Positions 6,849-23,125 of a DNA stretch of 23,317 nucleotides are shown one piece after another. The translations under genes were made by a program, and so were the position numbers. The stretch's first letter is position 1; the number at the start of each line of letters is the position of its first letter. The DNA is from a virus, in the IMG/VR virus record IMGVR_UViG_3300027733_000209, positions 1-23,317 of that record; one strand, 5' to 3'. The notes beneath the pieces were generated by a model that was given only the letters and a program-made list of their open reading frames with translations, was not told where the DNA came from and searched no databases.

Positions 6849-8783
6849 CTATGCCGAGATATCCACAAGCTCACAGTTTCCGTCTGAACTGCAAGCAAGC
6901 GTGGCATTTGTAGATGTGCCATCTTCTGTCTCATAAAATGATAGGTCTTCCCAACGAATATTTTTAGGCATTTTTGCCACCAAAGCATCGTATTCTTCTT
7001 TTGAAATTTCCTGGTATGGTGCCTGCTTATATGTATGCTCTGAATGAGGCAGGAATGAAATACCAGAAACTTCATCAAAGTTTTTATAAACCCATGCTCC
7101 TACTTCCATCCACTCATCTTCTTTAACAGATACTGTAATTGAGGGCTTATGCTCACACCATGCACGTTGGTAAACCAGCCAAATGTTTAGGTGGTCAATT
7201 GCTGTTAAGTCATTTCTAATTATTGCACCTTCTGGTGCTTTTATTGGAAATGAAAATACGTATGTATCGTTTGGCTTCATTACATCATCTTCTACTGGAA
7301 TTCCAACTTCCTTCAAAAACGTAGAGATAGGATCTCCCTTTGAACCACGAACTGTACGAATGTAGTATGGAGAATGCCAAGCATGCATTCCTGAAGATAC
7401 GCCAACTAATTGAGATACTGTTCCTGATGGTTTCACGCATGTAATTGCTGCTGATTCTGGAATACCGATTTTTTCAGCCTCGTTTTTATTTTGTGCTCTT
7501 GCCAATTCTCTTAAAGTCATTAAGAATGCCTCTAAAGAAACAAGATCTTCTTTCCCTGACATAAACTTATGCCCAAATTGTCCTGTTAGGGAAACCCCTA
7601 GTAAACGCTCTTCTTCTGTGTTATCTTTCCAGATTTTACGTAGGTACTTAAAGTCTGTAAGTGTTGATTGCCATGTTCCAAGGATTGTTGCAAGCTCGAC
7701 CTTACGTTGAATATCTTTCTTTGTGTCATTTTCACGTAGTACGACTTCTGAAAGGTTACAAAACTGGTAAGGACGTAAAATAATCTCTGAGCACGGGTTA
7801 GTTCCATAGTGAATATCTGGATCTCTTCTTCCATACTTGGCTGCCTGGGCTTGAGCTGCGGCCACATTGTATATACCTCGTTCTCCTGACTTCGAGTCAT
7901 ATAAAGATTTCCATTCTGCAATAAATTGCTCCATCTCTGGCTTGCGAGAGTACGCAACAGAGTTATTAGATAAAGCACGTTGTGGACTTGCTTCCCACCA
8001 GTTACCTGATTTGGCTTGAGCCATTTCAATGTCGTTAATATTTGAAAGTGAAATCATTGCAGAGCGTCTAACTCCTCCAACAACAACTACCTCACCAATT
8101 TTACACATAATGTCGTGGCATTCAATTGGCTTTAGATTTCTACCAGCGGCAGACTTAAATTTTGCAATAGTAAAATCAAAAAGATTTACAAGAGGTTGTG
8201 GTCCAGAAGACCTTCCACCCATTGTCTTAAGTCTTGCTCCAGCAGGACGAACTTTTGAAACGTCAATAGCTGGAATGTGCCCTGTCCAAAGCAATGCGAG
8301 TAGTTCACGATATGCCTTAGCCCAACCTTGCTTAGAATCTTCTACAACAATAACAGTGTCTGTTTTTTCAAGTTTTTCTGGAACGGCAGGAAGTTTATTA
8401 ATGTACTTGTATTCTACTGAGAATCCGACACCCGTTCCGCACATCAAAATATACATTGTTTCGTCAAATGATCTTGGAGAGTCAACTGGTAAGAATGCAC
8501 AGTTATATCCAGCAACGTTGTCTCTTTCTAATGCGGCTCCAGAAGTCATAACTGATCTCATAGATGGCATTACATTTCGTTCAAATACAAACTCTTTTAA
8601 TTCCGCAACAAGCTTCTCATTTGGAATATAATTATGATTTTCTTTTAAATGATTGGTCATGAAAGAAAAATATCTATCTACTGTTTCTCCCCATGTTTCT
8701 CTACGGCCTTCTGCTTCTACCCACTTTGCATATCTAGATAAAGCAATAAAGTTTTCATAAGGGTTTTCAATAGTTTGTGACAT
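6849..8783 (-). CDS. nrdJ: Class II (B12-dependent) ribonucleoside-triphosphate reductase
   Basis: A 644-aa enzyme that would reduce ribonucleotides to deoxyribonucleotides with adenosylcobalamin, supplying phage DNA synthesis. The active-site sequence TNPCSEI gives N329, C331 (thiyl radical) and E333. C342 follows eleven residues after C331, the same spacing as the C408/C419 pair of Lactobacillus leichmannii RTPR. C95 (YNCAF) is the likely disulfide partner. The C-terminal C631-x5-C637 pair would relay electrons from thioredoxin. It is about 95 residues shorter than the Lactobacillus enzyme. It is transcribed away from the lysozyme gene and is followed by the holin gene. The ATG has only AAAGG, ten bases upstream. 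Confidence 0.95.
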   Translation of the reverse strand: MSQTIENPYENFIALSRYAKWVEAEGRRETWGETVDRYFSFMTNHLKENHNYIPNEKLVAELKEFVFERNVMPSMRSVMTSGAALERDNVAGYNCAFLPVDSPRSFDETMYILMCGTGVGFSVEYKYINKLPAVPEKLEKTDTVIVVEDSKQGWAKAYRELLALLWTGHIPAIDVSKVRPAGARLKTMGGRSSGPQPLVNLFDFTIAKFKSAAGRNLKPIECHDIMCKIGEVVVVGGVRRSAMISLSNINDIEMAQAKSGNWWEASPQRALSNNSVAYSRKPEMEQFIAEWKSLYDSKSGERGIYNVAAAQAQAAKYGRRDPDIHYGTNPCSEIILRPYQFCNLSEVVLRENDTKKDIQRKVELATILGTWQSTLTDFKYLRKIWKDNTEEERLLGVSLTGQFGHKFMSGKEDLVSLEAFLMTLRELARAQNKNEAEKIGIPESAAITCVKPSGTVSQLVGVSSGMHAWHSPYYIRTVRGSKGDPISTFLKEVGIPVEDDVMKPNDTYVFSFPIKAPEGAIIRNDLTAIDHLNIWLVYQRAWCEHKPSITVSVKEDEWMEVGAWVYKNFDEVSGISFLPHSEHTYKQAPYQEISKEEYDALVAKMPKNIRWEDLSFYETEDGTSTNATLACSSDGNCELVDISA

Positions 8784-14843: not shown

Positions 14844-15088
14844 CTATTCACTTGATCTTAGGTCTTAGGTCTTATATATATTATATATATTATATATTTA
14901 TTATTTATTGATTTACTGACCCCCCGACCCCCCTAGAAAAATTATACTATTTATATTTTCGATGTCAAGCTTTTTTTGATCAACTTCTTTTTCAGATTTC
15001 AGAAAATGTTAATATATTTTTAATTTGTACGATACACATATAAATCAAAATCGGACAAAATGGATAGACCGCCCATATTGAGCGTGAG

Positions 15089-15104
15089 TGTGTCCTATCT
15101 CACA
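15089..15104 (+). promoter_or_regulatory. CRP/GlxR-like palindrome, unit A
   Basis: TGTGT-CCTATC-TCACA, one mismatch to TGTGA-N6-TCACA. Its centre is about 84.5 bases upstream of the predicted start of promoter 15153-15174. It is enclosed by the CCCATATT/AATATGGG inverted repeat. Confidence 0.6.
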
Positions 15105-15152
15105 GGGTTATTCTAAGATTTATTCCGACACGCCCGAGAATATGGGTCTAAA

Positions 15153-15174
15153 TGTCAGTCCCCCCTGCTATGAT
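15153..15174 (+). promoter_or_regulatory. TGTCAG-class promoter 1
   Basis: TGTCAG (15153-15158), 10 bases, TATGAT (15169-15174). No good -35: the bases at that position are GTCTAA. It serves the 51-aa gene at 15223. Confidence 0.7.
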
Positions 15175-15222
15175 TATTATATAAAGAAAGTAAGAAACTC
15201 TTACTAAGAAAGGTGGTCTAAA

Positions 15223-15378
15223 ATGACTACACTAACAGAAACACTATATAGCACAATCGTGCACGACTTCCACAATGGTGGAGTCAAGTCCTCTTATGGA
15301 CTAGATACCTATACACGCAAGGCTCTACTCCGTGCCCTGCTATCCTCTAAGGGTTGTGAGTGTATCAACTGCCTGTGA
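15223..15378 (+). CDS. 51-aa protein with C-terminal cysteines
   Basis: First gene of the right-hand region, behind promoter 1 and an AAAGGTGG ribosome-binding site. It begins MTTLTETLYSTIVHDFHNGG and ends KGCECINCL, three clustered cysteines. The middle, SYGLDTYTRKALLRALLSSKG, is likely helical. Its stop codon lies inside the CRP-like site of the next unit. Function unknown. Confidence 0.6.
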   Translation: MTTLTETLYSTIVHDFHNGGVKSSYGLDTYTRKALLRALLSSKGCECINCL

Positions 15379-15389
15379 GGTATCTCACA
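15374..15389 (+). promoter_or_regulatory. CRP/GlxR-like palindrome, unit B
   Basis: TGTGA-GGTATC-TCACA, a perfect match to the CRP-type half-sites. Its centre is about 74.5 bases upstream of the predicted start. It overlaps the stop of the 51-aa gene. Confidence 0.7.
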
Positions 15390-15420
15390 CGCTAACCCTC
15401 CACCACTACGGCGTGTCGCC

Positions 15421-15449
15421 TTGATAATGTCAGCCCACTAGGCTACAAT
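15421..15449 (+). promoter_or_regulatory. TGTCAG-class promoter 2
   Basis: TTGATA (15421-15426), 17-base spacer, TACAAT (15444-15449), with TGTCAG at 15428-15433, 10 bases before the -10. The best -35 of the set. It drives the 15488-16283 operon. Confidence 0.75.
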
Positions 15450-15487
15450 ACTTACTATAACTACTAACGAAAAGGATAGAAAATAAA

Positions 15488-15640
15488 ATGAAGATAACTT
15501 ACTCACTATGGGACGGCGCTCAACTACTAGGCGTGGATTTCACCGCTAATAGCGCAGACGAAATGAATAAGGTCGTAGCAGACCTAATGAAAGTTTCTCG
15601 TAATGTCGTAGCACATATGCGAAAGGTAGAGCAGAACTAA
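15488..15640 (+). CDS. 50-aa protein of unknown function
   Basis: MKITYSLWDGAQLLGVDFTANSADEMNKVVADLMKV and onward. First gene of a five-gene operon, with AAAAGG upstream. A beta strand followed by a helix is likely. Its TAA shares a base with the next ATG. Unrecognised. Confidence 0.6.
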   Translation: MKITYSLWDGAQLLGVDFTANSADEMNKVVADLMKVSRNVVAHMRKVEQN

Positions 15641-15825
15641 TGTCATACGCATACAACACACGCACTAACAGCGTATCTAAATGGGAAACTATCCAAGAAG
15701 ATGTCGCAGACCAATACGCCTACCTAGATGAAGAGGTAGAGCAAGATGAAGAAGAGTTAGAGGATACAGACCTAACAGATGAGCAAGTAGATGCACTATT
15801 AGCAGATATGGAATGGGTGGCGTAA
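15640..15825 (+). CDS. Very acidic 61-aa protein
   Basis: The C-terminal two thirds (YLDEEVEQDEEELEDTDLTDEQVDALLADMEW) is strongly acidic. Small acidic phage proteins often mimic DNA or bind basic host proteins, but nothing specific is visible. Coupled by TAATG at both ends. Confidence 0.6.
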   Translation: MSYAYNTRTNSVSKWETIQEDVADQYAYLDEEVEQDEEELEDTDLTDEQVDALLADMEWVA

Positions 15826-15980
15826 TGATACCTACAGGATTTGAGTTATCTATAACTAACGAATACGGATTTGAGTTTGATAGTTTCCTAGGGGCTATCT
15901 ACTTACCTTGGCACACTATTATTCTTACTACCTTAGCGGTAATTGCTTATAAGATTTATAAAAGAAAGCGGGCTAAGTAA
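15825..15980 (+). CDS. 51-aa membrane protein
   Basis: One membrane span (WHTIILTTLAVIAYKIY) followed by a basic tail KRKRAK. Coupled (TAATG) to both neighbours. Function unknown. Confidence 0.55.
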   Translation: MIPTGFELSITNEYGFEFDSFLGAIYLPWHTIILTTLAVIAYKIYKRKRAK

Positions 15981-16093
15981 TGACTACTAATCGCTTACTA
16001 ACTACCGCCGTCCAATTACTACTAGCGGGCGTAACTATCCCGCTACTAATTGCCGTAATAAAAGATATAAAAAATGGGGGACTAAATGAGTAA
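15980..16093 (+). CDS. 37-aa membrane peptide
   Basis: MTTNRLLTTAVQLLLAGVTIPLLIAVIKDIKNGG: one hydrophobic span. Overlaps the next gene by ATGAGTAA. GGGGG for the next start lies in its end. Function unknown. Confidence 0.5.
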   Translation: MTTNRLLTTAVQLLLAGVTIPLLIAVIKDIKNGGLNE

Positions 16094-16283
16094 ATCACAA
16101 TTAGAAAAAGATTTAGAAATAAAAGAAAGTTTTATAGATTTGCTAAATGATATTTATCCTACTGTAAAAATCGGTTACTCTACATTCACACCCGCCGAAA
16201 TCTTAGAGTGTTGCGATCCCGTTGCGTTTTCTATCGGACTAATTGAGCACGAAGATTATTTAGCAGAATTAGAAGAAGAATAA
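16086..16283 (+). CDS. 65-aa protein of unknown function
   Basis: MSKSQLEKDLEIKESFIDLLNDIYPTVKIGYSTFTPAEILECCDPVAF and onward, acidic at the C-terminus. The pattern hints at a small helical protein. GGGGGA precedes the ATG. Last gene of the operon; hairpins follow directly. Confidence 0.6.
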   Translation: MSKSQLEKDLEIKESFIDLLNDIYPTVKIGYSTFTPAEILECCDPVAFSIGLIEHEDYLAELEEE

Positions 16284-16293
16284 CGGCGTGTCG

Positions 16294-16310
16294 GCTTGAC
16301 ATAGTCAAGC
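16294..16310 (+). other. Perfect hairpin after the operon
   Basis: GCTTGAC-ata-GTCAAGC follows directly on GGCGTGTCG. No T-run follows, so it is not a classical terminator. Confidence 0.5.
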
Positions 16311-16345
16311 TGGCCCGCAAAGGCACGGGGTCGGGCGTGTCGTTA
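16308..16345 (+). repeat. 38-nt direct repeat, copy 1
   Basis: Begins AGCTGGCCCGCAAAGG and ends GGGCGTGTCGTTA. Identical over all 38 bases to 17992-18029. It holds a GCCCG/CGGGC stem. Confidence 0.9.
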
Positions 16346-16383
16346 TGAACTTGTTATAAAATCCCCTGGAATTTACGGCGTGT

Positions 16384-16411
16384 CGATTTGACAGACAAAT
16401 CGGACATTTTT
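16384..16411 (+). terminator. Hairpin with T-run
   Basis: CGATTTG-acaga-CAAATCG is a 7-bp perfect stem, followed by GACATTTTT. It fits a rho-independent terminator just upstream of the unit C CRP-like site. Confidence 0.6.
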
Positions 16412-16412
16412 A

Positions 16413-16428
16413 TGTGATTAGTATCACA
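16413..16428 (+). promoter_or_regulatory. CRP/GlxR-like palindrome, unit C
   Basis: TGTGA-TTAGTA-TCACA, perfect half-sites. Its centre is about 85.5 bases upstream of the predicted start. Confidence 0.7.
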
Positions 16429-16469
16429 CGGCTTGAGCGTCTTACTATGTGGACTTACTGGCTAGTAGG

Positions 16470-16499
16470 TAGATAAATGTCAGTCCCCTAATGTATAAT
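16470..16499 (+). promoter_or_regulatory. TGTCAG-class promoter 3
   Basis: TAGATA (16470-16475), 18-base spacer, perfect TATAAT (16494-16499), with TGTCAG at 16478-16483. Confidence 0.75.
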
Positions 16500-16532
16500 G
16501 TCTACTATAACAACAACGAAAGAAGGTCAGAA

Positions 16533-16664
16533 ATGAACCTAGACGAATTCAAGGCGCACATTATCGCCACCCGTCAAGCAAGCAAGGCAGAAGCCTTGTC
16601 AGTGCTATCTGCTAAAATGTCCATAACAACAACAACGAAAGAAGGTGCCACTAATGGCAACTAA
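16533..16664 (+). CDS. 43-aa protein of uncertain status
   Basis: MNLDEFKAHIIATRQASKAEALSVLSAKM and onward, after GAAAGAAGG. It contains a second TGTCAG promoter and a second copy of the CAACAACGAAAGAAGGT leader inside its frame, and overlaps the next gene by 11 bases. It may be a genuine small gene or a leader created by duplication of the promoter unit. Confidence 0.45.
   Translation: MNLDEFKAHIIATRQASKAEALSVLSAKMSITTTTKEGATNGN
16597..16618 (+). promoter_or_regulatory. TGTCAG-class promoter 4, inside the 43-aa frame
   Basis: TGTCAG (16597-16602), exactly 10 bases, TAAAAT (16613-16618). The -35 position is poor. It is followed by the same leader as promoter 3, then the ATG at 16654. No CRP-like site of its own. 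Confidence 0.6.
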
Positions 16665-16860
16665 ACTATACACAATAGAAAACCTACTTGTAGGGAAAAA
16701 CTATCGCTCTAATTCTCGCCACTTTTCTGGTGAAATTATTTCTGCTAAGGCTCGCCCTGAAATTTGGTATGGCGATAAAACTGAAGCGTATCTAATTGAG
16801 GTTCGCACAGGCGGTCTGCGAAATAAATTCGCAACAATCGCAGTAAAGGTTGGTGAATAA
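16654..16860 (+). CDS. 68-aa protein of unknown function
   Basis: MATKLYTIENLLVGKNYRSNSRHFSGEIISAKARPEIWYG and onward, probably an all-beta small domain. I prefer the ATG at 16654 over GTG at 16645 because GAAGG lies at a proper distance only from the ATG. First gene of a seven-gene overlapping run. Unrecognised. Confidence 0.65.
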   Translation: MATKLYTIENLLVGKNYRSNSRHFSGEIISAKARPEIWYGDKTEAYLIEVRTGGLRNKFATIAVKVGE

Positions 16861-17037
16861 ATGAAAAGTTTCTCAACTGATGTAATTGACCAAAACGAAT
16901 TTTATCTTATACACGACACAACTTTTATGTGTTGTGACCAAAGTCAATTTCGCTATTCTTGTAAGGCTCACGGCGAAATGATGGGTTGCTACTTTTGCGA
17001 ATTTGATTACTCTAAAGAATGTGAGTGTGCTGAATAA
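16861..17037 (+). CDS. 58-aa cysteine-rich protein
   Basis: Seven cysteines in 58 residues: TFMCCDQ, YSCKAHGEMMGCYFCEFDY, KECECAE. The spacing (C-x7-C-x2-C) suggests a zinc finger. It follows the previous stop with no gap. Function unknown. Confidence 0.6.
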   Translation: MKSFSTDVIDQNEFYLIHDTTFMCCDQSQFRYSCKAHGEMMGCYFCEFDYSKECECAE

Positions 17038-17192
17038 TGGGATACATAGAGATTTTTCGTATGGACGATGAAGGTGCTGGCTGGGTAGATTTATCCGAAG
17101 CCACCCCCGATGAATTATTCAACATTGAATTAGGTCTAGTCAATGAAGGTGCGTTTGACGGCTCTTTATTTATGAATGGAGAAAACGAATGA
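17037..17192 (+). CDS. 51-aa acidic protein
   Basis: MGYIEIFRMDDEGAGWVDLSEATPDELFNIELGLVNEGAF and onward. Coupled by TAATG upstream and ATGA downstream. Unrecognised. Confidence 0.55.
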   Translation: MGYIEIFRMDDEGAGWVDLSEATPDELFNIELGLVNEGAFDGSLFMNGENE

Positions 17193-17353
17193 GCAAAATG
17201 AAAGAATACATAGAAATAATCGCAGCGAATTGCGATGAATGCGGTGGCGCAGGATTTTTATTTTTCGGAGACGAAAGAAATTATGATGTAGAGCCTTGCG
17301 CTTGCGTAGATGAAATTGCTGATGAACTTACAGTAGATTGGGTAAATGAATAA
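17189..17353 (+). CDS. 54-aa DnaJ-type zinc-knuckle protein
   Basis: CDECGGAGFLFFG is very like the CxxCxGxG knuckle of DnaJ zinc centres, followed by CAC, giving four cysteines. It probably binds zinc. Overlaps its neighbours by ATGA and TAATG. Function unknown. Confidence 0.6.
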   Translation: MSKMKEYIEIIAANCDECGGAGFLFFGDERNYDVEPCACVDEIADELTVDWVNE

Positions 17354-17499
17354 TGAATAAATACACTTTTGGCGTTTGGCTAGACATAGACGCAGAGGAC
17401 GAAAATCAAGCGTTATCTTTATTTGATGAGGTTGTAAAGAAAAATCCTTTTGTTTCAGACTCTTATTGTTTTGAATGGAAAGAGGTTGCTAATGTATAA
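17353..17499 (+). CDS. 48-aa protein of unknown function
   Basis: MNKYTFGVWLDIDAEDENQALSLFDEVVKKNPF and onward, a small strand-helix pattern resembling the following gene's N-terminus in style. Overlaps that gene by eight bases. Confidence 0.55.
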   Translation: MNKYTFGVWLDIDAEDENQALSLFDEVVKKNPFVSDSYCFEWKEVANV

Positions 17500-17695
17500 A
17501 ATAACTCTAGCCTATGACGGAAATGCCCCACACTGGCAGGGCGATTACTATGATGAAATGGAAGCGTGGTCAGCGTTTTTCAAATTCACCGACTGGGGAT
17601 TTGCTGATGAATTCTCAACTGTAAATATTTACACTCCCGAATTGAAATGCTACACAAAAAACTTTTATCGTAGCGGAATGGTGGTAGCAAAATGA
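17492..17695 (+). CDS. 67-aa protein of unknown function
   Basis: MYKITLAYDGNAPHWQGDYYDEMEAWSAFFKFTDWGFADE and onward, rich in aromatic residues. The ATG at 17492 is preferred because AGAGG precedes it and it overlaps the previous stop; an earlier in-frame start at 17450 lies well inside the previous gene. Unrecognised. Confidence 0.6.
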   Translation: MYKITLAYDGNAPHWQGDYYDEMEAWSAFFKFTDWGFADEFSTVNIYTPELKCYTKNFYRSGMVVAK

Positions 17696-17883
17696 TGACT
17701 CGTAAAGATTATGTTGCAACCGCAGAAATTCTAAAGTATGCAAGCAATAAAACTCACCCAGCGTTATTTTCTAAACTCGTTCACGATTTCGCAGAAATGT
17801 TTGCGAAAGATAATCCGAGATTTGATGTAACACGATTTCACGAAGCGAGCAATTATAATGTTCCTAACTTCACTTCAAGATAA
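17692..17883 (+). CDS. 63-aa protein of unknown function
   Basis: MMTRKDYVATAEILKYASNKTHPALFSKLVHDFAEMFAKDNPRFD and onward. From memory it resembles small actinophage proteins of the type DY...A-x-IL followed by FA-x-MFAxDNPRFD. Coupled by an ATGATGA overlap. Function unknown. Confidence 0.6.
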   Translation: MMTRKDYVATAEILKYASNKTHPALFSKLVHDFAEMFAKDNPRFDVTRFHEASNYNVPNFTSR

Positions 17884-17989
17884 AGTAAAACGAATTCAGG
17901 AATTGCGCCGCAGTAATGCGGCGCAACCTGTTCGCAATAAAAAAAAATATACACGCAAGATCAAACATAAAAATAAATTTGACAATTAG
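17858..17989 (+). CDS. 43-aa very basic protein
   Basis: MFLTSLQDKVKRIQELRRSNAAQPVRNKKKYTRKIKHKN and onward, strongly basic, so probably nucleic-acid binding. It overlaps the previous gene by 26 bases, and no clear ribosome-binding site is seen. A GC-rich 9-bp hairpin lies inside it. Confidence 0.5.
   Translation: MFLTSLQDKVKRIQELRRSNAAQPVRNKKKYTRKIKHKNKFDN
17903..17926 (+). other. Perfect GC-rich hairpin inside a small gene
   Basis: TTGCGCCGC-agtaat-GCGGCGCAA, nine perfect pairs, with no T-run after it (an A-run follows). Unusual within a coding frame; it may limit downstream translation or mark an mRNA end. Confidence 0.6.
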
Positions 17990-17991
17990 CC

Positions 17992-18029
17992 AGCTGGCCC
18001 GCAAAGGCACGGGGTCGGGCGTGTCGTTA
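17992..18029 (+). repeat. 38-nt direct repeat, copy 2
   Basis: Identical to 16308-16345. Here it directly precedes a CRP-like site; in copy 1 about 70 bases intervene. Confidence 0.9.
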
Positions 18030-18033
18030 CGGG

Positions 18034-18049
18034 TGTGATCAAAATCACC
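18034..18049 (+). promoter_or_regulatory. CRP/GlxR-like palindrome, unit D
   Basis: TGTGA-TCAAAA-TCACC, one mismatch. Its centre is about 63.5 bases upstream of the predicted start. Confidence 0.6.
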
Positions 18050-18076
18050 CTAGAAAGCTGGGACAGGATTGGAATA

Positions 18077-18098
18077 TGTCGGTCCATTCTGCTATACT
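18077..18098 (+). promoter_or_regulatory. TGTCAG-class promoter 5
   Basis: TGTCGG (18077-18082, one mismatch), 10 bases, TATACT (18093-18098). Because transcription would start near 18105, the GP88 gene cannot begin at the upstream frame opening (18069). Confidence 0.65.
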
Positions 18099-18125
18099 TG
18101 CCATTCAACCAACGATTGGGCTCCA

Positions 18126-18845
18126 ATGAAACTAAAACGTTCTAATGATAGAAAGGTGGCTAACCTTGTCACAAAAAATGGAAAGCAAGCCGCAATTGCT
18201 AACACGTTCGGATTACCTGCTGGAAAGAATTATTCTTGTCCTGGCGCAACGTCTATTTGCGAGAGTGTCTGCTATGCGGGAAAACTAGAAAAGTTATTTC
18301 CTGGTGTAAAAACTAATCTATTACACAATTGGTCTCTACTAAAAGACGCCGATAGCGAAACTATGGTCCGCCTATTAGAAGAGATGATTGTTGATTTTAT
18401 TGCTGATTGTGATAAGAAGAATGCGCCTAAGTTATTTCGTATCCACTGGGACGGGGATTTCTTCAATGATACTTATACATATGCTTGGAAGACTGTTATC
18501 GAAAAGCATTCCGATGTTCAATTTTGGGTTTATACACGAGTAAAGTCTGCAGCGCTTATTATCAAGGATGTTGCTAATCTTTCACTATACTATTCAACCG
18601 ATGATGAGAATAAAGAAATAGCATTCGATTTGAAAACTAATTCTAAGGTCCGCCTTGCTTATCTAGGTAAGACATTCGCTGCAACCGAAAACACAATGAA
18701 AGAATTGACGGGCAAGCCTGGCGCTAAGTGCCCTGAGAATATGAAATCAATTCCACTTATCTCTAGCAATGGGTCTGCCTGCGTATCTTGTGGCCTGTGT
18801 GTTTACGGTAAAGCGGATATTAGATTTTCTGCGAGTAAAAAATAA
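18126..18845 (+). CDS. GP88-family phage protein with conserved cysteines
   Basis: A 239-aa protein from the ATG at 18126, the first start after the predicted transcription start. It matches the actinobacteriophage gene product 88 family as I recall it: TFGLPAGKNYSCPGATSICESVCYAG (27-52), then FRIHWDGDFFNDTYTYAW (104-121), FWVYTRV (133-139), and a final CVSCGLCVYG (219-228). The cysteines form C38-x6-C45-x3-C49 and C219-x2-C222-x2-C225, which suggests an iron-sulphur or zinc centre. The biochemical function of the family is unknown to me. Coupled by TAATG to a small membrane protein. Confidence 0.8.
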   Translation: MKLKRSNDRKVANLVTKNGKQAAIANTFGLPAGKNYSCPGATSICESVCYAGKLEKLFPGVKTNLLHNWSLLKDADSETMVRLLEEMIVDFIADCDKKNAPKLFRIHWDGDFFNDTYTYAWKTVIEKHSDVQFWVYTRVKSAALIIKDVANLSLYYSTDDENKEIAFDLKTNSKVRLAYLGKTFAATENTMKELTGKPGAKCPENMKSIPLISSNGSACVSCGLCVYGKADIRFSASKK

Positions 18846-18994
18846 TGTATGACATTCTCGGATCTGCTATCGCAATTATATTAATCGCATTCTTGTGCTC
18901 ACCAATTGTGCTAGCTATATACATGTGGAATGGTGCAAAATTTGATAATGATCATGATGGCCAGGAAGATTTGCCTAATCGTTGGAATAGGTAA
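18845..18994 (+). CDS. 49-aa membrane protein
   Basis: MYDILGSAIAIILIAFLCSPIVLAIYMWNGAKFDNDHDG and onward: one long membrane span and a short acidic tail. Translated from a TAATG after GP88. Function unknown. Confidence 0.6.
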   Translation: MYDILGSAIAIILIAFLCSPIVLAIYMWNGAKFDNDHDGQEDLPNRWNR

Positions 18995-19007
18995 CGGCGT
19001 GTCGATT

Positions 19008-19019
19008 TGACAATTGTCA
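19008..19019. other. 12-bp perfect palindrome
   Basis: TGACAATTGTCA, following GGCGTGTCG. It occupies the position that hairpins take after GGCGTGTCG at 16285 and 16377. Confidence 0.5.
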
Positions 19020-19042
19020 GCTCGGCCCCTATATGTATGGGG

Positions 19043-19072
19043 TTATCCACAGGCTTACGAGAGTTATCCACA
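19043..19072 (+). promoter_or_regulatory. Two DnaA boxes in direct orientation
   Basis: TTATCCACA at 19043-19051 and again at 19064-19072. The starts are 21 bases apart, two helical turns. Both are exact consensus DnaA boxes. They lie upstream of the unit E CRP-like site. Confidence 0.75.
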
Positions 19073-19083
19073 ACCCCTGGAAT

Positions 19084-19099
19084 TGTGAGTATTATCACA
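19084..19099 (+). promoter_or_regulatory. CRP/GlxR-like palindrome, unit E
   Basis: TGTGA-GTATTA-TCACA, perfect. Its centre is about 69.5 bases upstream of the predicted start, the one site out of phase with the others. Confidence 0.7.
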
Positions 19100-19132
19100 A
19101 AAGCTGCGACACGCCGAGAATGGATTATGTAA

Positions 19133-19154
19133 TGTCAGTGGCTAATGGTAAAAT
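19133..19154 (+). promoter_or_regulatory. TGTCAG-class promoter 6
   Basis: TGTCAG (19133-19138), 10 bases, TAAAAT (19149-19154). Poor -35. Confidence 0.7.
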
Positions 19155-19183
19155 ACTCTTATCCAACCAACGAAAGGTAATCT

Positions 19184-19408
19184 ATGTCTAATCTAATGAA
19201 AGTTCCACACACAGTTGAGTTCGAGGCAATTATTGACTTGGATAAAATTCCCGCTAACTTACTACCTGCAATACTTGCACTTGATACTTATTCAGTTACA
19301 AAGATGTGCAAAGAAGCAACACTACACGCTATTGGTATGTCTAATGTATTACCACTTGCTAATGATAATAACACTTGGGCTGAAATAACTGTCAAGGAAG
19401 GTAACTAA
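19184..19408 (+). CDS. 74-aa protein of unknown function
   Basis: MSNLMKVPHTVEFEAIIDLDKIPANLLPAILALDTYSV and onward. It follows the CCAACGAAAGG leader common to this region. Probably a small alpha/beta fold. Unrecognised. Coupled by TAATG. Confidence 0.65.
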   Translation: MSNLMKVPHTVEFEAIIDLDKIPANLLPAILALDTYSVTKMCKEATLHAIGMSNVLPLANDNNTWAEITVKEGN

Positions 19409-19578
19409 TGAACCACTACGATTTTATGACTAAACTAACAAAGATTGCTCCCAACGCTTCCGACGATGTAGATAACTATGGACAGGTAATTATTTATACT
19501 CACCTAAAATACAACGACGAAACGGGAGAGTATGAAGAAATGTCCGAGAAAGATTTTGAAGATGAGGAGAATAACTAA
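19408..19578 (+). CDS. 56-aa acidic protein
   Basis: MNHYDFMTKLTKIAPNASDDVDNYGQVIIYTHLKYND and an acidic tail EEMSEKDFEDEENN. The central beta stretch could be a small sheet. Coupled by TAATG at both ends. Unrecognised. Confidence 0.6.
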   Translation: MNHYDFMTKLTKIAPNASDDVDNYGQVIIYTHLKYNDETGEYEEMSEKDFEDEENN

Positions 19579-19841
19579 TGGGACACACAACAGCGTTAGA
19601 TTTTGCAGAATTAGATTTAGAACAAGGTATTGCTATGCACTTACAAGGTAATCATTACCCGCCCGTTCCACTTTCTATGGTGCAACCTTGCATCGAGGCT
19701 ATTGACGCATACTGGGCAGATGAGTATGATAAATTGATCGAAATGCCTGAAGGCGTATCTTATCGAGGAGATAAGTTTGCACCCGCACACGCAATAGTAG
19801 AACAGCATCACTTACACGCTTGGCTACAAGAAAGTGACTAA
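19578..19841 (+). CDS. Small conserved actinophage-type protein (NHYPPVP motif)
   Basis: An 87-aa protein. TTALDFAELDLEQGIAMHLQ, followed by NHYPPVP (25-31), and EQHHLHAWL near the end resemble a small protein often seen in actinobacteriophages, as I recall. The N-terminus is helical and acidic; several histidines near the C-terminus could bind metal. Function unknown. Its stop lies in the unit F CRP-like site. Confidence 0.65.
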   Translation: MGHTTALDFAELDLEQGIAMHLQGNHYPPVPLSMVQPCIEAIDAYWADEYDKLIEMPEGVSYRGDKFAPAHAIVEQHHLHAWLQESD

Positions 19842-19848
19842 GGTCACA
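19833..19848 (+). promoter_or_regulatory. CRP/GlxR-like palindrome, unit F
   Basis: AGTGA-CTAAGG-TCACA, one mismatch. It overlaps the stop codon of the preceding gene, as in unit B. Its centre is about 74.5 bases upstream of the predicted start. Confidence 0.55.
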
Positions 19849-19878
19849 CAATAACTTTCTCAAATACTGAGATAGGGC

Positions 19879-19908
19879 TAGACAAATGTCAGACCCCAAT
19901 GCTATACT
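19879..19908 (+). promoter_or_regulatory. TGTCAG-class promoter 7
   Basis: TAGACA (19879-19884), 18 bases, TATACT (19903-19908), with TGTCAG at 19887-19892. Confidence 0.75.
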
Positions 19909-19934
19909 ATCCACTAACAAAGAAAAGAGGCAAA

Positions 19935-20114
19935 ATGACAATAGAAGGAAAACTCTATCAGGTTGGCGATTTATTCACCACCCTAAAGTCAAAGAGAACA
20001 GGTGTTATCAAAGAGATACACCCACAGGCATCTGGCTCGGTGCGTGTGCTACTGGAACTACCTAGCAAGGAAACTCGCTGGACTTCAGTATCTGCTAAAA
20101 CACTTTTAGGCTAA
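19935..20114 (+). CDS. 59-aa protein of unknown function
   Basis: MTIEGKLYQVGDLFTTLKSKRTGVIKEIHPQASGSVRVLLEL and onward, an SH3/KOW-like small beta pattern with a central Gly. I place the start at 19935, after the predicted transcription start and AAAAGAGG; a frame opening at 19899 lies inside the promoter. Unrecognised. Confidence 0.65.
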   Translation: MTIEGKLYQVGDLFTTLKSKRTGVIKEIHPQASGSVRVLLELPSKETRWTSVSAKTLLG

Positions 20115-20176
20115 TACCTAAAACGAAACAGGGACAGTTTAGAGAGTATCTAATCCAATGTCGTAAGTAAGAACTC

Positions 20177-20192
20177 TCCACCTTCGGGTGGA
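20177..20192 (+). other. TTCG-tetraloop hairpin before promoter 8
   Basis: TCCACC-TTCG-GGTGGA, six perfect pairs. It ends two bases before TGTCAG and occupies the place of a -35. Confidence 0.6.
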
Positions 20193-20194
20193 AA

Positions 20195-20216
20195 TGTCAG
20201 ACCCCCCTGCTATACT
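20195..20216 (+). promoter_or_regulatory. TGTCAG-class promoter 8
   Basis: TGTCAG (20195-20200), 10 bases, TATACT (20211-20216). No -35 and no CRP-like site upstream. Confidence 0.7.
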
Positions 20217-20251
20217 AATCAACCAACCAACCAACGAAAGGTAATAAATAA

Positions 20252-20668
20252 ATGAGCAGACAAATCACAGTAAAGGTCGCAACGACCAAAGTAATCAAGG
20301 CACTAGAGGCTCGTCTAGCAACGCTAGAAAACGATTACAACACACAGACCGCAAAGGAAGCAAAGTTCGGCAAAGCGCAAGAAGCGTGGCGCAAGGAAAT
20401 TGCTAAGTGGGCTATTGCTAACTTCTCAAAGGCTGAGAACCTTCGCACAAACTATCGTCAATGGAATAACACTCTCAATGTTGATTTTGACATCATCACA
20501 AAGGAAGGAAACTTCCCTGCTGAACCTGAAAAGGATTTTGAGGTTATCCATCAGCACCAGTATCGTGAGATGAAAGAGGACATTACAAATGCTCTCACAA
20601 TTCTCAAAATGACAGATGAGGAAACAGTAAATGCTTCCACAATGAAGCAGATTGCTAAGTATCTCTAA
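20252..20668 (+). CDS. 138-aa helical, charged protein
   Basis: MSRQITVKVATTKVIKALEARLATLENDYNTQTAKEAKFGKAQEAWRKEI and onward. The N-terminal half is a likely coiled coil. The C-terminal half has EKDFEVIHQHQYREMKEDITNALTILKMTDEETVNASTMKQIAKYL. From memory it resembles uncharacterised actinophage early proteins. It follows the CCAACCAACGAAAGG leader. Function unknown. Confidence 0.7.
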   Translation: MSRQITVKVATTKVIKALEARLATLENDYNTQTAKEAKFGKAQEAWRKEIAKWAIANFSKAENLRTNYRQWNNTLNVDFDIITKEGNFPAEPEKDFEVIHQHQYREMKEDITNALTILKMTDEETVNASTMKQIAKYL

Positions 20669-20727
20669 ATAGGTTTTGGGGGGTTAGCACACAAAGTCTA
20701 GACACCTAAACCCAAACAACCTGAGTA

Positions 20728-20760
20728 AGTTGCCAAACTGCTCTCCCTTCGGGGACAACT
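20728..20760 (+). other. Structured 5' leader with a TTCG hairpin
   Basis: An outer stem AGTTG/CAACT (20728-20732 with 20756-20760) encloses TCCC-TTCG-GGGA (20744-20755). It lies just upstream of the ribosome-binding site of the 86-aa gene. No promoter is clear in 20669-20778. Confidence 0.5.
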
Positions 20761-20778
20761 ACTAACAAAGGTAATACA

Positions 20779-21039
20779 ATGGCAAATCGTTTCAGAGTAG
20801 AAATCTACGACGCAAACAAATCAAACGACATCACGATTTATTCGGATCAAGGTGTTGATAAAGAATATCTAACTGAATTAGTATTCAGTAATATTAAAAA
20901 CTTTAGCGGAAAAATAAATGCTTATGTTTTTGATAATGTAAAGAAGAAAAAAACAACTGCAATGTTTCTTGATGAAGAAACAGTTGAGTTTAATAAAAAC
21001 TTAATTAAAAGCGCAACAGGAATTGAGTTGGGGAGTTAA
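20779..21039 (+). CDS. 86-aa protein of unknown function
   Basis: MANRFRVEIYDANKSNDITIYSDQGVDKEYLTELVFSNIKNFSGKINAYVFDNVKKKKTTAMFLDEE and onward. A mixed alpha/beta small protein with basic and acidic patches. AAAGG precedes the ATG after a structured leader. Unrecognised. Confidence 0.65.
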   Translation: MANRFRVEIYDANKSNDITIYSDQGVDKEYLTELVFSNIKNFSGKINAYVFDNVKKKKTTAMFLDEETVEFNKNLIKSATGIELGS

Positions 21040-21068
21040 TCCCCAGCTCGGCCCCCGCTTTTGAGGGG

Positions 21069-21100
21069 TTATCCACAGCGTTACGAGCACCTGTGGATAA
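21069..21100. promoter_or_regulatory. Two DnaA boxes in inverted orientation
   Basis: TTATCCACA at 21069-21077 and its inverse TGTGGATAA at 21092-21100. The spacer shares TTACGAG with the 19043 pair. As there, the pair follows an AGCTCGGCCCC...GGGG stem. Confidence 0.75.
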
Positions 21101-21112
21101 CTCCTGAAAGTT

Positions 21113-21128
21113 TGTGAGAATGATCACA
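21113..21128 (+). promoter_or_regulatory. CRP/GlxR-like palindrome, unit H
   Basis: TGTGA-GAATGA-TCACA, perfect. Its centre is about 74.5 bases upstream of the predicted start. Confidence 0.7.
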
Positions 21129-21159
21129 GGTAACAATTCGGACAAATGACTATCTAATC

Positions 21160-21188
21160 TAGACAATGTCAGTGGCAGATGTTATACT
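21160..21188 (+). promoter_or_regulatory. TGTCAG-class promoter 9
   Basis: TAGACA (21160-21165), 17 bases, TATACT (21183-21188), with TGTCAG at 21167-21172. Confidence 0.8.
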
Positions 21189-21217
21189 TATGACTAATCA
21201 AACGAAAGGAAATAAAA

Positions 21218-22222
21218 ATGGCTCATAATCTAGAAATGGAAAACGGCGAAGTTGCTTTTGCTCTTCGTGGTGCTCCTGCTTGGCACAATCTAGCAAATCG
21301 CATCTTTACAAAAGATGAGGAAGTTACAACTAGCCTAATGCTTGAAGAAGCAAAACTGTCTAATTGGAATGTTCGCTTATCACCATTGACTGACCACATT
21401 TCAGAATCTTGGAATGATGTATCTCAGGCATCTCTTGTCATTCGTGACAACCCATTCAACAAGGGCATTGATGTTCTTGCAACTGTCGGCAAGCGTTACA
21501 AGCCTGTGCAGAATGAAGAACTATTTGCATTCGCTGATGCAATTCACGATGCCAATGCTGATTGCCGTTGGGAATCCGCTGGCTCATTGAAAAAGGGTAA
21601 AGTTGTTTTCGGAACTGTGGACATTCCACGCACAATGGTTCTTGACCCACAAGGCGCTAACGATGAGACAAAACTTTATCTTATCGTATGGACATCACAC
21701 GATGGTTCTGTTGCTGTTCAAGCAGCCGTTACACCTGTTCGTGTAGTATGCCAAAACACTTTGAATCTTGCGATGCGTAATGCTAAGCAATCATTCAAGA
21801 TTCGTCACACACAATCTGTTGAAGGTCGCATTCAGGTTGCTCGTGAAACTCTTGGGCTTGCTCTTGGATACTTTGATGAATTTGAAGTTCAAGCAAAAGC
21901 ACTTTACTCACAAGCAATTACCGATGCTGAATTCTCTAAGTTGATTCAGACAATCTATCCTAAGCCTGAAAAAGATGCTAAGGGTGCAATCAAAAAGTGG
22001 GAAAATAAGGTTGTTCTAATTGATGACCTTTACCATAACTCACCAACTAACGCTAACATCAAGGGAACTAAGTGGGGTGCGTTCAATGCACTAACTGAGC
22101 GTCTTGATTATTATCGTTCAGGTCGTGGCAATTCTGAAACACTAATGGCTGGTGCATCAGGCTTTGACCCAATTCTTACCGCAGAAAAAAATAAGTTGTA
22201 TCGAATGGTTGCAACTTTCTAA
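21218..22222 (+). CDS. DUF932 / phage-plasmid-like protein
   Basis: A 334-aa protein of the DUF932 (phage/plasmid-like, TIGR03299) type. It opens MAHNLEMENGEVAFALRGAPAWHNLA, with the family's PAWH-x-L motif at 20-25. The middle, TPVRVVCQNTLNLAMRNAKQSFKIRHTQ, is the conserved family core (VRVVCxNTL). The C-terminal segment NIKGTKWGAFNALTERLDYY is also typical. These proteins occur in phages and conjugative plasmids; the function is uncertain. AACGAAAGGA precedes the ATG. All 16 arginine codons are CGN. A terminator and tRNA-Asp follow. Confidence 0.85.
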   Translation: MAHNLEMENGEVAFALRGAPAWHNLANRIFTKDEEVTTSLMLEEAKLSNWNVRLSPLTDHISESWNDVSQASLVIRDNPFNKGIDVLATVGKRYKPVQNEELFAFADAIHDANADCRWESAGSLKKGKVVFGTVDIPRTMVLDPQGANDETKLYLIVWTSHDGSVAVQAAVTPVRVVCQNTLNLAMRNAKQSFKIRHTQSVEGRIQVARETLGLALGYFDEFEVQAKALYSQAITDAEFSKLIQTIYPKPEKDAKGAIKKWENKVVLIDDLYHNSPTNANIKGTKWGAFNALTERLDYYRSGRGNSETLMAGASGFDPILTAEKNKLYRMVATF

Positions 22223-22235
22223 ATAAAATAAATCC

Positions 22236-22266
22236 TGAGCAAGATTCAAAACTGCTCACATTTTTT
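22236..22266 (+). terminator. Rho-independent terminator after the DUF932 gene
   Basis: TGAGCA (22236-22241) and TGCTCA (22253-22258) pair, followed by CATTTTTT. It ends just before the tRNA. Confidence 0.75.
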
Positions 22267-22269
22267 CTT

Positions 22270-22346
22270 GATCCATTAGCTCAGTTGGTTAGAGCGCTAC
22301 CCTGTCACGGTAGAGGCCGTCGGTTCAAGTCCGATATGGGTCGCCA
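22270..22346 (+). tRNA. tRNA-Asp (anticodon GTC)
   Basis: Acceptor GATCCAT/ATGGGTC, D-loop CAGTTGGTTAG, anticodon arm CTACC-CTGTCAC-GGTAG with GTC, T-loop TTCAAGT, discriminator G, and CCA encoded in DNA. A complete, well-paired tRNA. It lies between the DUF932 terminator and the unit I CRP-like site. Confidence 0.95.
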
Positions 22347-22381
22347 AATAGATTTGTCGACAATGCCCCCAAAGTTGCGGG

Positions 22382-22397
22382 TGTGATTTTAATCATA
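22382..22397 (+). promoter_or_regulatory. CRP/GlxR-like palindrome, unit I
   Basis: TGTGA-TTTTAA-TCATA, one mismatch. Its centre is about 73.5 bases upstream of the predicted start. A palindrome TTGTCGACAA lies at 22354-22363. Confidence 0.55.
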
Positions 22398-22427
22398 CGG
22401 AGATCATAAAAAAAGCCCTGGAAAAGC

Positions 22428-22456
22428 TTGTACATGTCAGTGGGGTCCGCTATAAT
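22428..22456 (+). promoter_or_regulatory. TGTCAG-class promoter 10, leaderless
   Basis: TTGTAC (22428-22433), 17 bases, perfect TATAAT (22451-22456), with TGTCAG at 22435-22440. Six bases after the -10 comes the ATG at 22463, so the transcript would start on the start codon. Confidence 0.75.
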
Positions 22457-22462
22457 ACTCGC

Positions 22463-23125
22463 ATGACACATTATCAGAAGTACACCTGGGTATGCACGGG
22501 AGACTGTGATGCTCTAATTGAATATACAATCAAGGATGGATATGGATGGCCTGCAGGTGAGATGAATCTCACATGCCGTTGCAATTCAAACTGCACCTTG
22601 GTGTCAGTGGAAGATGCTACAATACCGTATACAGATACACCCCTACAAACGAAAGAGGAACCAATGGAAGAATCAACAGTAACAACTACACCAATCCCTG
22701 AGTCATATAACTCTAATCTATTAGTAACCTACAAAGTTATTCGTGGATATTCAGATGCAGAATATGCAACTGATAAGGTTACCAGCATTGAATGGGACCT
22801 ACACAATGGACGTCAAGCACAGAAGCACAATAACGTTCTAAATGGCAAGATTGATGCGGCTAAAGAAATTATCTGCGAGGCATATGCAGACTCACAAGAC
22901 CAAGATACCTTACGTGAAATTGCTGAGGCGCTTGGTATTGAACTTATCAAGGAAGTTCTGTTCACTGCAACTCTTGAAGTTAGCGGAACATACACATACA
23001 ATATCTTAGATTCAGATTATGAATTGGACCTTGATTCAGAAGTCACAGATGCTCTTTACGCCGATTCAAATAACGGTAACATCACAATCGATGACACCGA
23101 AGTTTGCCACGTAAGAGAAGCATAA
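22463..23125 (+). CDS. 220-aa protein with N-terminal zinc-finger-like domain and an internal start
   Basis: The leaderless ATG at 22463 opens a cysteine domain: CTGDC (11-15) and CRCNSNC (38-44). After a Thr/Pro linker, an in-frame ATG at 22664 (Met68) has its own AAACGAAAG-AGG leader like other genes here. It would give a 153-aa protein starting MEESTVTTTPIPESYN. The C-terminal part (YTYNILDSDYELDLDSEVTDALYADSNNGNITIDDTEV) is acidic. Two products from one frame are plausible. Function unknown. Coupled by TAATG to the next gene. Confidence 0.7.
   Translation: MTHYQKYTWVCTGDCDALIEYTIKDGYGWPAGEMNLTCRCNSNCTLVSVEDATIPYTDTPLQTKEEPMEESTVTTTPIPESYNSNLLVTYKVIRGYSDAEYATDKVTSIEWDLHNGRQAQKHNNVLNGKIDAAKEIICEAYADSQDQDTLREIAEALGIELIKEVLFTATLEVSGTYTYNILDSDYELDLDSEVTDALYADSNNGNITIDDTEVCHVREA

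Follow-up and report, generated by a model that had tools for sequence, protein, structure and literature searches.

Introduction

The closest precedent for the system described here is found in T4-like cyanophages, whose genomes carry many predicted sites for NtcA, a host global regulator of the CRP superfamily (1-16 per genome, mean 8.9; PMC3037559; here and below we draw on parts of the papers cited). Those sites were sought as GTA-N8-TAC, and NtcA responds to 2-oxoglutarate (2OG); the sites reportedly drive diverse functions (PMC3037559). Sites for host regulators are thus already known in phages, from cyanophage NtcA and from phage T1, where the regulator is CRP. Here we describe TGTGA-N6-TCACA palindromes in a 23,317-nucleotide stretch of viral DNA (IMG/VR record IMGVR_UViG_3300027733_000209, positions 1 to 23,317; hereafter the window). 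We read them from their sequence as predicted sites for a CRP/GlxR-type activator of the host, probably used in class I fashion.

As in the cyanophages, there are many predicted sites for a host regulator of the CRP superfamily, and 2OG-Fe(II) oxygenase genes are numerous in both (eight in the related record G013). Unlike the NtcA sites, those described here match the CRP/GlxR consensus, are confined to one block of genes and are phased to promoters. Phage T1 shares with our phages the action of host CRP on phage promoters, which is predicted here and concerns pir, dam and recE there; it differs in that a few promoters are repressed in Escherichia coli in a glucose- and cyclic AMP (cAMP)-linked manner, with no array of consensus sites in the part of that report used here (PMC6737242). 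The regulons of Corynebacterium glutamicum GlxR and Mycobacterium tuberculosis CRP have the same kind of consensus, the same regulator family and upstream sites with activation, but they are chromosomal, their sites are often imperfect and no phage enters the parts of those accounts drawn on here (PMC7999487, PMC4117774). What appears to be new is therefore a different regulator served by near-consensus sites that lie in one block, are conserved in three clades and are phased, most clearly in two of them. In the open-access literature we found no report of CRP/GlxR site arrays in actinophages, several of the searches being narrow.

Among cultured phages, the Stanwilliamsviridae, for instance Streptomyces phage Angela (ON970591), encode a DUF932 protein about 50% identical to that of the window (the sole protein compared) and have a block of small genes at the genome end, as here. 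The first 12.5 kb of Angela holds no site with one mismatch or fewer, and its promoter and operator sequences differ. In ten cultured actinophages with DUF932 we counted 25 sites with no more than one mismatch, spread over the genomes, and 14 reversed controls; with these counts and no site in the Angela end block, we set cultured relatives aside as a test bed.

Palindromes upstream of the promoters of one gene block

At about 15000-22700, the rightmost third of the window holds a block of genes, most of them small, that are read in a single direction and include those for GP88 (18126-18845) and DUF932 (21218-22222) proteins. A pattern search of this block found 11 promoters of the common form TGTCRG-N10-TANNNT, nine of which have a TGTGA-N6-TCACA palindrome with no more than one mismatch within 110 bp upstream, at a distance of 27-49 bp (Table 1); the promoters at 16597 and 20195 are the two that lack one. 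A preliminary description of this DNA had placed eight palindromes upstream of eight of ten promoters. All eight lie where it put them, four perfect (15374, 16413, 19084 and 21113) and four with one mismatch (15089, 18034, 19833 and 22382), and their centres of -84.5, -74.5, -85.5, -63.5, -69.5, -74.5, -74.5 and -73.5 are correct when the start is taken as the end of the -10 element plus 7. The upstream position of the sites thus stands but the proportion does not, as the pattern gives nine of 11, with a ninth site at 22558-22573 having been overlooked. The published GlxR consensus, TGTGA-N6-TCACA, agrees with the palindrome at each of its ten defining bases (PMC7999487), and so the likeness to that consensus which the description had drawn also holds.

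The block contains four perfect and five one-mismatch palindromes. First-order Markov sequences led us to expect 0.013 perfect copies in these 7.7 kb (2000 runs, maximum 1) and 0.26 copies with up to one mismatch (150 runs, maximum 2) against the nine observed. When two mismatches are allowed, the palindrome is not enriched in the whole window (16 observed, 12.3 expected), and the signal therefore resides in the near-perfect sites.

The core promoters, as seen in the distinct set from relatives, combine an extended -10 element with a weak, TnGnAA-like -35 element across a 17-bp spacer, and would therefore suit an activator. The element AATGTCAGT (15153-22623) stands immediately downstream of the weak -35, and in relatives TGTCAG-N10-TANNNT occurs 1436 times in the forward and 3 times in the reverse orientation. 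We dropped a MotA-like reading of TGTCAG, given the weak -35 just upstream and the 17-bp spacer. An ATG at 22463, seven bases past the -10 element of promoter 22435 (22451-22465), is predicted to be a leaderless start, and promoter 22602 lies inside the open reading frame (ORF) that begins there.

Table 1. Palindromes, promoters and DnaA-box-like sequences of the gene block, in window coordinates
Feature	Coordinates	Strand	Remarks
Palindrome TGTGTCCTATCTCACA	15089..15104	.	1 mismatch; 48 bp upstream of promoter 15153
Promoter TGTCAG-N10-TATGAT	15153..15174	+	Pattern match
Palindrome, perfect	15374..15389	.	38 bp upstream of promoter 15428
Promoter TGTCAG-N10-TACAAT	15428..15449	+	Pattern match
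Palindrome, perfect	16413..16428	.	49 bp upstream of promoter 16478
Promoter TGTCAG-N10-TATAAT	16478..16499	+	Pattern match
Promoter TGTCAG-N10-TAAAAT	16597..16618	+	No palindrome here; site at 48 in 11/17 group sequences
Palindrome TGTGATCAAAATCACC	18034..18049	.	1 mismatch; 27 bp upstream of promoter 18077 (GP88 gene)
Promoter TGTCGG-N10-TATACT	18077..18098	+	GP88 gene; pattern match
Two DnaA-box-like TTATCCACA	19043..19072	+	Upstream of 19084 palindrome
Palindrome, perfect	19084..19099	.	33 bp upstream of promoter 19133; half-turn exception
Promoter TGTCAG-N10-TAAAAT	19133..19154	+	Pattern match
Palindrome AGTGACTAAGGTCACA	19833..19848	.	1 mismatch; 38 bp upstream of promoter 19887
Promoter TGTCAG-N10-TATACT	19887..19908	+	Pattern match
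Promoter TGTCAG-N10-TATACT	20195..20216	+	Palindrome in 0/72 related promoters
Two DnaA-box-like sequences, inverted orientation	21069..21100	.	Upstream of 21113 palindrome
Palindrome, perfect	21113..21128	.	38 bp upstream of promoter 21167 (DUF932 gene)
Promoter TGTCAG-N10-TATACT	21167..21188	+	DUF932 gene 21218-22222
Palindrome TGTGATTTTAATCATA	22382..22397	.	1 mismatch; 37 bp upstream of promoter 22435
Promoter TGTCAG-N10-TATAAT	22435..22456	+	Pattern match
Palindrome TGAGATGAATCTCACA	22558..22573	.	Ninth site; 1 mismatch; within ORF; 28 bp upstream of promoter 22602
Promoter TGTCAG-N10-TACAAT	22602..22623	+	Pattern match

Conservation of the palindromes in related phages

Relatives were taken from IMG/VR scans with the DUF932 and GP88 proteins. 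The main set of 117 different contigs consists of the best 80 of 319 relatives and 37 from other contigs (best 80 of at least 594). Near-identical contigs were kept in this set, and counts of distinct rows are given where relevant. For the clade of a more distant relative, L160, we used the best 80 of 459 relatives; one further scan covers the 80 stretches listed of at least 120, from which L326 and L378 were left out as repeats of a contig.

Conservation in relatives had been set beforehand as the test, and the 117 contigs hold 616 perfect copies of TGTGA-N6-TCACA (351 distinct with their flanks). At the 14 other spacers from 0 to 14 the same half-sites occur 0-21 times; the next best of the 1024 possible half-sites reaches 83 copies at N6, and the reversed palindrome is absent. 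A TGTC[AG]-N11-TAnnnT promoter lies within 134 bp downstream of 601 of the 616 perfect sites (591 with the stricter TGTCRG form). The half-sites were fixed by the search, but the N6 core was free, and among the 351 distinct rows it takes 93 different forms with a symmetric preference (G or T first, A or C last, an A/T-rich middle), as expected of a dimeric CRP-type protein. The palindrome extends to two further groups. All 45 contigs of a second clade (L159 and L323-L367 without L326) carry it, with 188 perfect sites, and the reversed control occurs once in the 62 contigs that this set comprises when L368-L385 are counted in; a third clade, the relatives of L160, has 307 perfect sites in 75 of 80 contigs, with three reversed controls. 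That the sites arose by chance, or as a by-product of repeated DNA, could be argued from the missing enrichment at two mismatches in the window alone; the spacer specificity, the variety of N6 cores and the conservation in three clades refute it, and we give it practically no weight.

The sites also keep to one part of the genome. Each of the 14 long records (109-120 kb) has 2-11 perfect sites, and in 11 of these 14, with all sites listed, they are confined to a single block that spans some 10 kb at most once the contig ends are taken into account. In one record, G013, three sites are present twice, once at either end of the contig and 108,742 bp apart, and the block therefore overlaps a repeat at the contig ends. 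We infer that the block is expressed early, because its genes are small and part of it is repeated at both ends of this contig.

Single promoters differ in how faithfully they retain their site. The DUF932 promoter has a gap of 38 in 65 of 67 related promoters, and the site at 28 of the 22602 group is retained in 46 of 53, while the site is lacking in 41 of 57 members of the 18077 group and in 19 of 56 of the 22435 group. Finally, the 17 contigs of L368-L385 have a TGTCRG promoter in 15 cases and a palindrome in one, and the promoter therefore does not need the site to exist. This group has a GC content of 42% against 37-38% and perhaps has another host.

Helical phasing on two promoter types

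The preliminary description had noted that most sites lie near whole helical turns from the promoter. The eight sites that it used are too few to establish this, but with the relatives the phasing becomes firm. We measured the gap from palindrome to TGTC and grouped promoters by their downstream sequence; the groups come from single linkage and are not fully independent. The gaps cluster at 18, 28, 38 and 48 (± 1), with a minor class at 33. Over 161 group-gap events the vector length R is 0.65 at a period of 9.95 bp, while 2000 sets of gaps drawn uniformly from 15 to 60 reach at most 0.30 (three events at gap 86 were retained in the data). With one modal gap for each of 100 groups, R is 0.68 against a null of 0.36, and 131 of the 161 events fall at 7-9 modulo 10.

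Orthologous promoters differ from one another by about whole turns, as in 27 to 37, 38 to 28 or 48, and 38 to 18. The 22435 group has gaps of 27-29 or 37, the 15428 group of 38 or 27-29, the 19887 group of 37-38 or 18, and the 15153 group of 48, 38 or 28, with 33 in 3 of 22. The one site that had been described as out of phase, at -69.5 (19084), is a real exception and is itself conserved: relatives of promoter 19133 have a gap of 33 in 55 of 77 cases, with 27, 28 or 37 in 19 others, and these forms differ by a short stretch separating the site from the promoter.

The L160 clade offers a second promoter type. Sites of this clade without a TGTCRG promoter are followed by ordinary TTGnnn-N16-18-TAnnnT promoters, whose -10 elements peak at 33 (21), 43-44 (27), 53-55 (21) and 64 (14) from the palindrome, the others being scattered; the scan for these canonical promoters pools both palindrome orientations, so that about half of its windows face away from any promoter. 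The register equals that of the TGTCRG promoters (gap plus 16). One register on two promoter types indicates that the site is phased to the -10 element, and hence to the polymerase, whatever stands at -35.

The many natural variants of these promoters lend themselves to asking how far upstream a CRP-type protein can activate, and from which face of the DNA.

The candidate regulator and the candidate host

No cyclic nucleotide (cNMP)-binding domain (PF00027) was found in the 14 long phage records and no CRP-type helix-turn-helix domain (HTH_Crp, PF13545) in 24 phage records. It is nevertheless conceivable that a phage-encoded regulator of another fold binds the palindromes, activating or repressing the promoters, and that their likeness to CRP sites is convergent. 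The sites are abundant in the phages and rare in the candidate host order, many block proteins are unassigned and G013 encodes an HTH_17 protein, all of which would suit such a regulator. This HTH_17 protein is, however, the sole helix-turn-helix protein among the Pfam families listed (67 of 75 family rows) for the 104 ORFs scanned of the 139 in G013. That convergence would have produced all ten bases and the N6 spacing of the CRP/GlxR consensus seems improbable, and if the promoters are early a new phage protein would need to be injected. We therefore regard a phage regulator as quite unlikely.

A host protein brings in the question of the host. The candidate host order, which we take to be 'Candidatus Nanopelagicales', is pointed to by L160, whose DUF932 protein is 53% identical and which lies in an Actinomycetota bin. 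Isolated Nanopelagicales phages have genomes of 39 kb (PMC10202952), whereas our records are of about 110 kb. A cNMP-binding protein is present in 132 of 151 genomes of the candidate order, usually one per genome and in most cases the size of a CRP. The genome that contains L160, G016, gave no match. The recognition helix of M. tuberculosis CRP, GASRETVNKALADF, is present in the 30 best-scoring of these proteins (all those translated). No conserved site was found near crp in 30 crp loci. Perfect sites occur in 170 of 296 genomes across the phylum.

Other routes to the host were rejected. Within the candidate order the phage tRNA-Asp finds its best matches at 81-82% identity (to 84% over part), and a match elsewhere in the phylum reaches 89% over 56 bases; the tRNA is therefore uninformative on the host. 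Binned phage contigs amount to two loci, one of which is in a cyanobacterial bin: L159, a 110-kb phage contig of the same kind, was binned into a cyanobacterium metagenome-assembled genome. Nor did TGTCAG prove useful as a host promoter element, the 1.2-Mb genome G024 having 6 and 1 copies at N10 against 0-6 at other spacers.

The preliminary description had suggested that the phage may read the cAMP or carbon state of its host through CRP. In favor of this, GlxR binding to DNA depends on cAMP in vitro, and aceA, a GlxR target, is derepressed when the cyclase CyaB is missing (PMC7999487). CRPs of the candidate order, too, have a stretch FGELSLFDxxPR that resembles FGELSIFDPGPR of M. tuberculosis CRP. 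We take this stretch to be the cAMP pocket. In a search confined to class III we found no adenylate cyclase in any of the 151 candidate-order genomes, with a positive control in C. glutamicum, and an up-regulation of ldhA that is independent of cAMP is reported in the GlxR study (PMC7999487). If these bacteria are the hosts, the phages would rely on a CRP whose own regulon makes little use of the consensus, and cAMP sensing is improbable; hosts among other actinobacteria would leave room for it. The suggestion is thus not supported, and we consider sensing of cAMP or carbon state unlikely.

A proposed class I-like mode of action

We propose that host CRP, present at infection, would bind the sites upstream of most promoters of the block. 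Standing at least one helical turn upstream, on the same face as RNA polymerase, it would recruit polymerase as at class I promoters and so compensate for the weak -35; cAMP need not take part. Upstream binding of CRP is associated with activation in M. tuberculosis (PMC4117774). The claim that these are CRP/GlxR-type operators in a class I-like phase is strongly supported by the conservation, the spacer specificity, the period of 10 and the lack of a detected phage CRP, and suggests that these large phages, uncultured relatives of those of actinobacteria, begin infection with an activator borrowed from the host. If so, a widely sampled group of uncultured actinophages would depend on a single host regulator for infection.

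Several observations weigh against this proposal. Among distinct promoters, 438 of 1041 lack a site of up to one mismatch at 10-74, and, in locus orientation, 102 of 189 sites of the second clade and 198 of 307 of the third lack a downstream TGTCRG promoter. The phase is less sharp in the second clade, where TGTCRG gaps have a peak at 60 besides those at 28, 38 and 48-49 and canonical promoters are sparse and dispersed. The half-turn class (gap 33/34) makes up 14 of the 161 events. Site centres of about -64.5, -74.5 and -84.5 relative to the predicted starts lie some 3 bp off the E. coli class I register of -61.5, -72 and -82.5. Sites of M. tuberculosis CRP cluster at -60 to -40, closer than most of the phage sites (PMC4117774). 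The candidate host order is indicated by L160 alone, with no help from the tRNA; besides yielding no class III cyclase it has 22 perfect sites in its 151 genomes, one of them in a phage contig, against 50 reversed controls, and G024 has 12 sites of up to one mismatch (rank 29 of 30 anagrams). We did not press the rarity of sites in G024 as evidence for binding, since codon phase confounds the spacer controls. Our searches of the open-access literature, moreover, brought up no account of binding or expression in these phages.

The same rarity lends something to another use of host CRP, in which the sites are mainly decoys that draw CRP off the host, or repress or time the promoters rather than activate them. 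Consensus sites are far less frequent in the chromosomes of the candidate hosts than in the phage, some promoters have half-turn sites, and cAMP-CRP acts negatively in phage T1, repressing the pir promoter and inhibiting dam and recE (PMC6737242). Decoys, however, require no fixed distance to a promoter, the core promoter, which is the usual place of repression, is overlapped by none of the nine window sites, and both the phasing at 18, 28, 38 and 48 and the whole-turn shifts within groups fit activation. We accordingly hold decoys or repression to be very unlikely and retain class I-like activation by host CRP as the probable reading.

DnaA boxes, short repeats and other genes

Perfect DnaA boxes, TTATCCACA, occur four times in the window, at 19043, 19064, 21069 and 21092 (minus), and 504 times in the 117 contigs, where the best of 200 anagrams reaches 108. 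They lie within 200 bp upstream of TGTCRG promoters in 399 of the 504 cases, mostly about 43 and 21 bases before a palindrome, and composites of box, box and palindrome number 90 in the main clade and none in the other three sets. The same box stands directly before a gene read as dnaN in G024. These composites allow a wider scheme, which we find doubtful though worth stating: the early programme of the lineage would run through an array of consensus sites for host CRP, with CRP and DnaA jointly gating infection at some promoters. The hosts would retain CRP but show no class III adenylate cyclase and almost no consensus sites in their own genomes, the cell's best CRP sites would then be those of the phage, and DnaA box, DnaA box, CRP site and promoter would keep a fixed spacing.

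A short repeat, GGCGTGTCG / CGACACGCC, is found eight times in the window (15126, 15410, 16285, 16334, 16377, 18018, 18996 and 19107) and 778 times in the 117 contigs, often close to promoters. Elsewhere in the window, 2400-4229 encodes a protein with a major-tropism-determinant N-terminal domain and tail-fibre matches, and 6849-8783 a ribonucleotide reductase that has B12-type domain matches. G013 (L526-L531), the relative with the end repeat, encodes the eight proteins matching 2OG-Fe(II) oxygenases along with a PstS-like binding protein, thioredoxin, Hsp20, pyrimidine dimer glycosylase and RecA, a gene set that recalls cyanophages.

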